From Paracoccus sulfuroxidans (GTDB lineage: Bacteria; Pseudomonadota; Alphaproteobacteria; Rhodobacterales; Rhodobacteraceae): a stretch of DNA of 64,000 nucleotides. Within the stretch, counting starts at the first letter, position 1. Each line of letters begins with the position of its first letter. The stretch is taken from positions 124,001 to 188,000 of the forward strand of contig NZ_VLKU01000004.1 in NCBI RefSeq assembly GCF_007830335.1, given 5' to 3'. Below the pieces are notes generated by a model. The model was given only the letters and a program-made list of their open reading frames with translations. It ran no database searches and was not told the origin of the DNA. Shown here in pieces: positions 57,320 through 59,730 of this stretch. The position numbers and the translations under genes are program-made.

Positions 57320-59191
57320 TCAGATCATGCGCCGCATGGCATTCATGCCCAGAACCCGTGCCCGCTTGCGCGGATCGCTGTCGAAAAGTGCAGCCAATTG
57401 TTCGGTCATGGCCCCGGCAAGCTGTTCGGCATCGGTGATCGTCACCGCGCGTTCGTAATAGCGGGTGACGTCATGGCCGATGCCGATGGCCAAAAGCTCG
57501 ACCTGCTTGCGCCGCTCGACCATCGAGATCACGTCGCGCAGATGCCGCTCCAGATAGTTGGCGGGGTTCACCGACAGGGTCGAATCGTCGACCGGCGCGC
57601 CATCCGAGATGACCATCAGGATCTTGCGCGCCTCGGGGCGGCGGATCAGGCGACGATGCGCCCATTCCAGCGCCTCGCCGTCGATGTTTTCCTTCAGCAG
57701 ACCCTCTTTCATCATCAGGCCAAGGTTCGGGCGCACGCGCCGCCAGGGCGCATCGGCCCCCTTGTAGATGATGTGGCGCAGATCGTTCAGGCGGCCGGGT
57801 TGCGCCGGGCGGCCTGCGGCCAGCCAGCGTTCACGGCTTTGGCCGCCTTTCCAGGCGCGGGTGGTGAAGCCCAGGATCTCGACCTTGACCTGGCTGCGTT
57901 CCAGCGTGCGCGCCAGAACATCGGCGCAGACCGCCGCAATGCTGATCGGACGCCCGCGCATCGAGCCCGAGTTGTCCAAGAGCAGCGTCACGACCGTGTC
58001 GCGGAATTCGGTGTCCTTCTCGACCTTGAAGGAAAGCGGCGTCGTCGGGTTCGCGACCACGCGGGCCAGACGGCCTGCGTCCAGCACGCCCTCTTCCTTG
58101 TCGAACTCCCAGCTGCGGTTCTGCTGCGCCTGCAGGCGGCGCTGCAGCTTGTTCGCCAACCGGCTGACCGCGCCGCGCAGGGGCTCCAGCTGCTTGTCCA
58201 GATAGGCGCGCAGCCGTTCCAGCTCGGCCGGGTCGGCCAGATCTTCGGCGCGGATTTCCTCGTCGAATTCCTGCGTATAGACCTTGTATTCCGAGCTCGC
58301 CTCGCTGACCGGAGGCGGCAGGTCGGGGGGCACGTCGGCTTCGGACATCTCGGCCTCATCGGCCATTTCCTCGTCGGTCATGTCATCCATGCTGACCTGG
58401 GCCTGACGCTCGTCCTGTTCCTGTTCCTGGCTGCGCTCGGGGCTGGCCTCGGCCTCTTCCTCCTGCGACTGCTCGCGCGACTGGCTGTCGCCGGCCTCTT
58501 CGTCCTGCTCGGCGTTTTCCTCGCCGTCGTCGTCCTGAGGCTCATCCGGGTCGTCGCCCAGCTGGTCGCCATAGCCGAGGTCGGAAATCAGCTGCCGCGA
58601 CAGGCGCGCGAAAGCGGCCTGATCGTGCAGGACACCGTTCACCTGCTCCAGATCCGCGCCCGCCTGTTCCTCGACAAAGGGACGCCAGAGATCGGCCACA
58701 TGCTGGGCCGCCGGGGGCAGGGCACGCCCGGTCGCGGCCTGCCGGACCAGATAGCCCGCTGCCGCCGCCAGCGGCGCATCCGAGGGCGACTTGATCTGGC
58801 CGTAGCCCTTGCGCTCGGCCTCATAGCCCATCTTGTGATCGATGTTCGACAGCGCGCCCGGCATGTCGCGCGCGCCAAGCGCCTCGCAGCGGGCGGTCTC
58901 CATCGCCTCGTAAAGCTCGCGCGCCATGGGACCGGCGGGCACGTATTTCGCATGCGTGGTCGTGTCGTGATGGCGAAGGCGCATCGCCAGCGCATCGGCG
59001 GTGCCGCGCGCCATAACGATCTCGTCGCGTGTCATCCGGCGGCTGACCTGAGGCAGGCGCATCGTATCCCCCGCAACCCCCGAGGGATCGGCGGTGAAGG
59101 TCACGTTCAGCTCATGCTCCTCGGCCAGCGCGCGGGTGGCTTCGGTCAGGGCCTTCTTGAACGGATCGGCGGGGTTGTCGGATTTTTTCAT
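57320..59191 (-). CDS. cobT: Cobaltochelatase subunit CobT
   Basis: 623 residues. With CobS and CobN it inserts cobalt into hydrogenobyrinic acid a,c-diamide in the aerobic cobalamin pathway. N-terminal helical domain (LTEATRALAEEHELNVTF; YEAMETARCEALGARDMPG), a long Glu/Asp/Gln-rich acidic linker (about 215-300), then a C-terminal von Willebrand A domain whose MIDAS motif DNSGSMRG is near residue 397 with downstream SDGAPVDDSTL. Its start codon overlaps the end of the inserted gene at 59188 (ATGA). Confidence 0.96.
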   Translation of the reverse strand: MKKSDNPADPFKKALTEATRALAEEHELNVTFTADPSGVAGDTMRLPQVSRRMTRDEIVMARGTADALAMRLRHHDTTTHAKYVPAGPMARELYEAMETARCEALGARDMPGALSNIDHKMGYEAERKGYGQIKSPSDAPLAAAAGYLVRQAATGRALPPAAQHVADLWRPFVEEQAGADLEQVNGVLHDQAAFARLSRQLISDLGYGDQLGDDPDEPQDDDGEENAEQDEEAGDSQSREQSQEEEAEASPERSQEQEQDERQAQVSMDDMTDEEMADEAEMSEADVPPDLPPPVSEASSEYKVYTQEFDEEIRAEDLADPAELERLRAYLDKQLEPLRGAVSRLANKLQRRLQAQQNRSWEFDKEEGVLDAGRLARVVANPTTPLSFKVEKDTEFRDTVVTLLLDNSGSMRGRPISIAAVCADVLARTLERSQVKVEILGFTTRAWKGGQSRERWLAAGRPAQPGRLNDLRHIIYKGADAPWRRVRPNLGLMMKEGLLKENIDGEALEWAHRRLIRRPEARKILMVISDGAPVDDSTLSVNPANYLERHLRDVISMVERRKQVELLAIGIGHDVTRYYERAVTITDAEQLAGAMTEQLAALFDSDPRKRARVLGMNAMRRMI

Positions 59192-59730
59192 GTACGTTCC
59201 TCAAGCTGAGGTGCTGGCTGCGTGATCGAGGCTATCTGATCCCAATTTTCATGATACCGGTTCAACCAGCCAGCGACATAGGGCGTTTGTGGCCCCATCA
59301 ATTTTGTATAATCGGGCAAGAGACGCCGGATGTTCGAGTCATTGCGCTTCTGACCGCGCGCGCCCGGATTGGAAAGCCACGTTGCGTGGCTGGTCCGGAT
59401 AACATTAGCGACGATTGGGCTCGGAATGACATAGATTTCGGCGGCATTCGACGCATGTTTGCCAAGATCAACGAAGCAATAGAATATCCGTGGGTTCGTC
59501 AGCTCTTCGTGTTTTTGACGCATATGCCAACCGCCGTCGCTACCCTTGTCCCAACGGGTCTTTACCTGAAAGGCACATAGTTGCGTTCCATCCACGGATG
59601 TTACGACAATGTCAAAGTTTGGGACGCCCTGCGGAGCAAGTGCAGCAATGTACCCACGCGATAGAAGCCGCGACATGACCAGATGTTCGCCTGCGGCACC
59701 CGTCATGGTCGAGGCGTCTATCGCATTCAT
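59188..59730 (-). CDS. Putative PD-(D/E)XK nuclease-like protein inserted between cobS and cobT
   Basis: 180 residues from ATG at 59730, whose A is the last base of the cobS TGA (TGATG); its own stop overlaps the cobT start (ATGA). The N-terminal half carries a pattern like the PD-(D/E)XK fold: helix TGAAGEHLVMSRLLSRGY with E15, then NFDIVV with D40, then AFQVKTR with Q55 and K57. Further blocks are GWHMRQKHEELTNPRIFYCFVDL, IYVIPSPIVA and RRLLPDYTKLMGPQ. I read it as a member of a widespread uncharacterised family; nuclease activity is unproven. Base composition is clearly lower in GC than the neighbours (29 of 60 bases G or C at 59221-59280 and at 59401-59460), suggesting transfer. Confidence 0.7.
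   Translation of the reverse strand: MNAIDASTMTGAAGEHLVMSRLLSRGYIAALAPQGVPNFDIVVTSVDGTQLCAFQVKTRWDKGSDGGWHMRQKHEELTNPRIFYCFVDLGKHASNAAEIYVIPSPIVANVIRTSHATWLSNPGARGQKRNDSNIRRLLPDYTKLMGPQTPYVAGWLNRYHENWDQIASITQPAPQLEERT

Follow-up and report, generated by a model that had tools for sequence, protein, structure and literature searches.

A predicted PD-(D/E)XK nuclease gene between cobS and cobT in Paracoccus sulfuroxidans, a candidate free-standing homing endonuclease

The nuc gene and its predicted product

We analyzed a 64,000-nucleotide (nt) stretch of the Paracoccus sulfuroxidans genome (contig NZ_VLKU01000004.1, positions 124,001 to 188,000; hereafter the window), in which an open reading frame (ORF) for a 180-residue protein, here called nuc, lies between the cobaltochelatase subunit genes cobS and cobT in the minus-strand order cobS, nuc, cobT (Table 1). 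Both neighbors score above the NCBIfam equivalog cut-offs as full-length equivalogs, and nuc overlaps each of them, the A of the cobS stop doubling as the first base of the nuc start. An earlier note, made from the sequence of the window alone, had described the frame, its TGATG and ATGA overlaps and an E15, D40, Q55-x-K57 pattern, all of which proved accurate; its guanine-plus-cytosine (GC) estimate of 48% did not hold for the whole gene (53.8%), though nuc is indeed the low extreme of the window. Whole-gene GC is 66.7% in cobT, 61.7% in cobS and 65.6% in the window, third-position GC is 0.57 in nuc versus 0.84 in cobT and 0.86 in cobS, a 543-bp frame slid along the window reaches a value as low as that of nuc at only 0.06% of positions, and the five lowest stretches all overlap it. 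Of 635 candidates from a protein search, 604 are relatives at E<=0.001, and the ratio of nonsynonymous to synonymous substitutions (dN/dS) between the copies in the genus is low (between 0.06 and 0.21 in those 8 of the 15 pairs whose dS is finite, rough values given a dS above 1 in six of the eight); together these indicate that nuc is more than a chance ORF.

In an alignment of 120 of the 604 homologues, Q55 and K57 are each invariant (120/120 rows), D40 is conserved in 119 rows with N in one, and the E15 column holds E in 111, a gap in 8 and D in 1. The AlphaFold2 (AF2) model of the product shows, by fold comparison, a PD-(D/E)XK alpha-beta core nearest to that of the homing endonuclease I-Ssp6803I (PDB 2ost), at a sequence identity of 17%. 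Its fold matches also include chains of SPARDA defense systems, 387-423 residues long, in which the DREN nuclease is one domain, whereas nuc encodes a lone 180-residue protein. With such a core and an E/D...D...(E/Q)xK site formed by the four conserved residues, the product is a predicted member of the PD-(D/E)XK superfamily, and the unrelated fold that would have spoken against the earlier note was not found. I-Ssp6803I, itself a PD-(D/E)XK enzyme, is encoded in a cyanobacterial group I intron, and nuc differs from it in being free-standing; against PDDEXK_5 (PF11645), a family which we take to cover I-Ssp6803I, nuc scored 14.8 bits (E 0.03), below the cut-off of 26.1. A PF11645 search of 21 genomes gave no match anywhere, controls included, and is uninformative. 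Searches of PDB sequences with the single nuc protein and with the A1 profile returned chance-level matches only; the match to I-Ssp6803I comes from the fold alone. A Pfam scan of the product at E<=1 listed no modification-reading domain, and none of 5027 PADLOC models matched at E<=10, in a scan whose HMMER filters drop most weak matches. A structured-RNA carrier (group I intron) was considered and rejected, 16 nuc loci giving 0 Rfam matches at gathering score.

Table 1. Position of nuc, its neighbors and junctions in the window, with the loci of relatives at the rpoD site
Feature	Position or loci	Strand	Basis
nuc, 180-residue predicted PD-(D/E)XK nuclease	59188-59730	minus	one ORF, E15/D40/Q55-x-K57, low GC, AF2 model
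cobS, cobaltochelatase subunit, upstream neighbor of nuc	59730-60701	minus	NCBIfam equivalog TIGR01650, 589 bits
cobT, cobaltochelatase subunit, downstream neighbor of nuc	57320-59191	minus	NCBIfam equivalog TIGR01651, 826 bits
TGATG overlap, cobS stop and nuc start, left junction	59728-59732	minus	read from sequence
ATGA overlap, nuc stop and cobT start, right junction	59188-59191	minus	read from sequence
nuc relatives at the rpoD site	L170, L179, L181, L201, L224, L228, L229		

Distribution and neighborhoods of nuc relatives

The distribution of nuc is rare and patchy. Counting its own genome each time, it occurs in 7 of 125 genomes of the genus and in 6 of 295 genomes of a family sample (one of these a weak match, E 2.8e-5), with no match at E<=0.001 in the other 118 and 289, so that the earlier note's view of a foreign-looking gene fitted seamlessly into cobS-cobT and missing from most relatives stands, and the gene is not, as might have undone that view, a fixture of every such pair. 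Three plasmid records match nuc, one of them over most of its length, none of 50,697 phage records does, and IMG/VR holds 12 loci with a relative. A scan of genome contigs confirmed 92 relatives, of which 80 loci were kept, many of them on contigs of metagenome-assembled genomes (MAGs), spanning Pseudomonadota, Patescibacteria, Acidobacteria, Actinobacteria, Cyanobacteria, Chloroflexi and others. Among the seven carriers in the genus the frame is open in six and broken near its start in G013 (L160), likely a decaying copy.

All seven genus carriers have nuc directly behind the cobS stop. On genome contigs cobS lies beside 5 of the 80 relatives, 4 of them in Paracoccus, and none was found beside the other 75. 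At 31 of the 80 loci the nuc start has the end of a same-strand ORF no more than 30 nt away (rough ORF picks), a share that is by itself unremarkable in operons; which genes lie upstream is more telling. In seven loci this gene is rpoD (two named by NCBIfam, five by BLAST clustering), with a possible nuc start at -4 to +12 of the rpoD stop in four and just beyond a terminator-like hairpin, at +33 to +49, in three. One relative follows mraY and then overlaps murD by ATGA, others follow purF and trpG or aspartate-transaminase-like and RlmN-like proteins (both below cut-off), and one lies about 77 nt behind dctM and runs by ATGA into a dehydratase gene. On viral contig L247 the genes for the terminase large subunit and the portal flank a relative (2455-2967) that runs on the strand opposite to theirs. 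As a separate observation, the rpoD 3' flank is varied in 30 nuclease-less family genomes (L264-L293), in some of which ORFs start at or next to the rpoD stop.

Of 154 neighboring ORFs picked by a rough script we scanned 130, the other 24 comprising the neighbors at cobS, cobT and rpoD, the downstream picks of Paracoccus loci, some ORFs that are very long or probably antisense, and a pair of short ones. No fixed partner emerged among those scanned: no Pfam family occurs in more than 3 (Phage_integrase in 3), PADLOC matches are scattered with at most 3 per family, and Argonaute and APAZ models are missing from the 25 PADLOC families listed for these neighbors. Nor was a methyltransferase partner of a restriction-modification system seen, the immediate neighbors of nuc being cobS and cobT and N6_Mtase occurring in only 2 of the 130 ORFs, both from other nuc loci.

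In a tree built from 35 of 83 nuc copies the seven genus copies form one clade (support 95/99). Copy L175, which comes from a Rhodobacteraceae MAG and lies at the cobS site, groups with three rpoD-site copies (98/90), and the rpoD-site copy of a Rhizobiaceae MAG (L201) with two from Paracoccaceae (98/99). Site labels are clustered on the tree (11 changes versus a shuffled mean of 19.7), and the approximately unbiased (AU) test failed to reject a single clade for either the rpoD site (p 0.157) or the cobS site (p 0.42). Repeated insertion at these sites is therefore suggested and not proven, as one insertion per site is still compatible with the AU test.

The cobS-cobT interval and traces of transfer

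Both cobS and cobT are present in 122 of the 125 genus genomes each and together in all 113 of good quality. Their interval was scored where the pair lay on one contig and strand within 15 kb, as in 93 of 123 entered genomes (L074-L166); in the remaining 30 the pair is split by contig, strand or distance, or one gene is missing, and partial rows (cobS of G029, cobT of G031 and G146, and one of two cobT pieces of G035) were kept out of the count. The gap measures 33-106 bp in 20 of the 93 and 248-2800 bp in 73. Of the 73 long junctions, 66 lack nuc. For the single control pair used, mraY-murD (3 of 125 genomes unscored), 95 of 122 gaps are <=200 bp and 27 longer, and in the 93 genomes with both pairs measured the cob gap alone is long in 56 and the mur gap alone in 2. 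The cobS-cobT interval is a variable cargo slot in the genus, more so than mraY-murD.

Many of the first ORFs called in long gaps are probably spurious, and only Pfam-matched cargo is named by family here, namely, besides nuc, an NYN-domain protein, an Asp/Glu racemase and a glycosyltransferase 61. Further cargo has no Pfam family; some of it is putatively secreted, as read from N-termini, and one protein is an orphan, the homologue search with the cargo of G069 having returned only itself. TGATG follows cobS in 30 of the 73 long gaps versus 1 of the 20 short ones. Two side observations follow. The first 520 nt of the gap in G004 (L151) hold a small Ala/Gly-rich ORF, possibly a bacteriocin-like gene to guess from its composition, followed by a terminator-like hairpin; and in G147, G022 and G003, where cobT is not beside cobS, the cobT match contains one in-frame TGA each.

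Partial second cobT starts, matching over 34-69 codons, follow the first cargo in G002 (L162), G004 and G032 (L157) and look like recombination scars. The G002 copy of nuc (P. solventivorans; L162, also L176) gives way to some 60 nt that match the start of cobT (92.9% over 56 nt to relatives), then to about 10 nt without assignment, and then to resumed resident DNA. The alignment of this DNA with four relatives begins 2 nt ahead of their cobS stop (94-96% over 49-50 nt), and further on it aligns with G068 (92% over 633 nt); the true cobT is found some 1.8 kb further along. Most simply, this arrangement would reflect the arrival of a cobS-nuc-cobT piece from a donor resembling G117, which entered by recombination within cobS and whose other end was joined illegitimately to the recipient at its cobS stop. 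Sequence identities agree with such a transfer, since nuc identity is high for G002-G117 (0.899; cobT 0.858) at a cobT identity like those of G000-G117 (nuc 0.792, cobT 0.859) and G088-G117 (nuc 0.773, cobT 0.862). Synonymous distances favor it weakly as well: they are 0.34 in nuc and 0.45 in cobT for G002-G117, and 1.32 and 1.81 in nuc, with 0.56 each in cobT, for G000-G117 and G088-G117. With regard to co-conversion of flanking DNA, the cobS distances of G002-G117 are low without a sharp boundary, and the footprint is a single one. In G013, G090 and G134 nuc precedes a resident stretch that starts about 40 nt after cobS in the nuc-less G106 and G033.

A homing interpretation and its alternatives

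We propose that nuc is a free-standing (intronless) PD-(D/E)XK homing endonuclease, likely selfish rather than a gene of B12 synthesis, and give this proposal about an even chance of being right. It draws on the ORF with its overlaps, the conserved residues, the modeled fold, the patchy distribution, the lack of a fixed partner among the neighbors scanned, the placement of relatives after unrelated conserved genes and the G002 footprint; from these we infer enzyme activity, a target at the cobS junction, a break-and-repair step and a selfish role. The product would cut chromosomes lacking nuc near the 3' end of cobS, repair of the break from a carrier chromosome would copy nuc in, and the TGATG and ATGA overlaps would allow its translation with cobS and cobT at little harm, so that nuc could persist. 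As an optional gene between conserved genes, with empty alleles in relatives, nuc would work like a free-standing homing endonuclease and is a candidate member of that class.

Several observations weigh against homing or against the transfer evidence for it. Within the final 60 nt of cobS no change is specific to carriers, and some non-carriers are identical to carriers over 30 nt, so that the target would have to span the junction. Both the cobS-cobT slot and the rpoD flank take other genes too; with a slot so varied and TGATG so common in it, the presence there of a foreign gene coupled to its neighbors does not in itself point to selfish insertion, nor is it the exception that the earlier note took it for. 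The cobT scars of G004 and G032 follow cargo other than nuc, which implies that the insertion route does not need this nuclease. Synonymous distances are likewise low for G090-G134 (nuc 0.38 versus cobT 0.50), the cobT distance of G002-G117 is the lowest of 15 pairs, and codon bias differs between nuc and cobT. The scan for a fixed partner left out the neighbors at cobS, cobT and rpoD, and defense nucleases have the same fold. With the identity contrast and the fold result still standing, we keep our estimate for homing unchanged.

The main rival is a solitary defense nuclease, for example a modification-dependent or abortive type, carried as cargo and placed by cobS homology anchoring one end and an illegitimate join at the other. 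The same combination of one homologous and one illegitimate end, homology-facilitated illegitimate recombination, is proposed for effector arrays of V. cholerae in PMC5361080; here, by comparison, cobS, a housekeeping gene, would serve as the anchor, and the scars consist of partial cobT starts. The missing PADLOC and modification-reading matches of the nuc product, the scattered PADLOC neighbors and the housekeeping genes among the named neighbors of its relatives make this explanation rather unlikely, though it ranks next after homing, and the phrase "selfish or defence cargo" in the earlier note takes in both. A mobile hitchhiker with a role in host DNA processing, such as a Holliday-junction-resolvase-like or repair enzyme without selfish drive, placed by the general slot, fits poorly with a rare and patchy gene whose better fold match is I-Ssp6803I and of which one in seven genus copies has a broken frame, and we consider it improbable. 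The earlier note had also offered recruitment to the chelatase unit, and translational overlap with both subunits in this genome would suit it; with nuc in so few of the genomes that carry cobS and cobT, and with relatives behind rpoD, mraY and purF at loci where cobS was not found, we hardly credit it at all.

Known homing systems resemble nuc in part. According to PMC1995217 the I-Ssp6803I gene lies inside an intron of a tRNA-fMet gene, and the single PD-(D/E)XK homing enzyme tabulated there is intron-borne; PMC12205087 describes I-Ssp6803I as a tetramer on a pseudo-palindrome. The phage free-standing homing endonucleases F-CphI, SegB, SegF and SegG (PMC6083498) are, like nuc, encoded by optional genes between two conserved genes, and the free-standing homing genes covered in the portion of PMC6083498 consulted are phage genes; a Haloferax paper also mentions free-standing homing endonucleases. 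Relatives of nuc, unlike these, lie mainly on cellular contigs (80 loci, versus 12 in IMG/VR and none in the phage records). The nuclease folds of F-CphI, SegB, SegF and SegG differ from that predicted for nuc.

A wider proposal, which we put forward tentatively and think less likely to be right than wrong, is that nuc represents a PD-(D/E)XK free-standing homing family, undescribed in the literature searched, that spreads through bacterial chromosomes by cutting conserved genes such as cobS, rpoD and mraY at their 3' ends and inserts with its start and stop codons overlapping those of its neighbors; these breaks may also have helped to make the cobS-cobT cargo slot used by unrelated genes. 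If this holds, homing would reach bacterial operons through a lone relative that settles after housekeeping genes on cellular chromosomes, and single genes could be placed between essential ones without an integrase. The cobS-cobT slot lends itself to direct tests in laboratory Paracoccus, as a single genus offers carriers, alleles that lack nuc, and scars.
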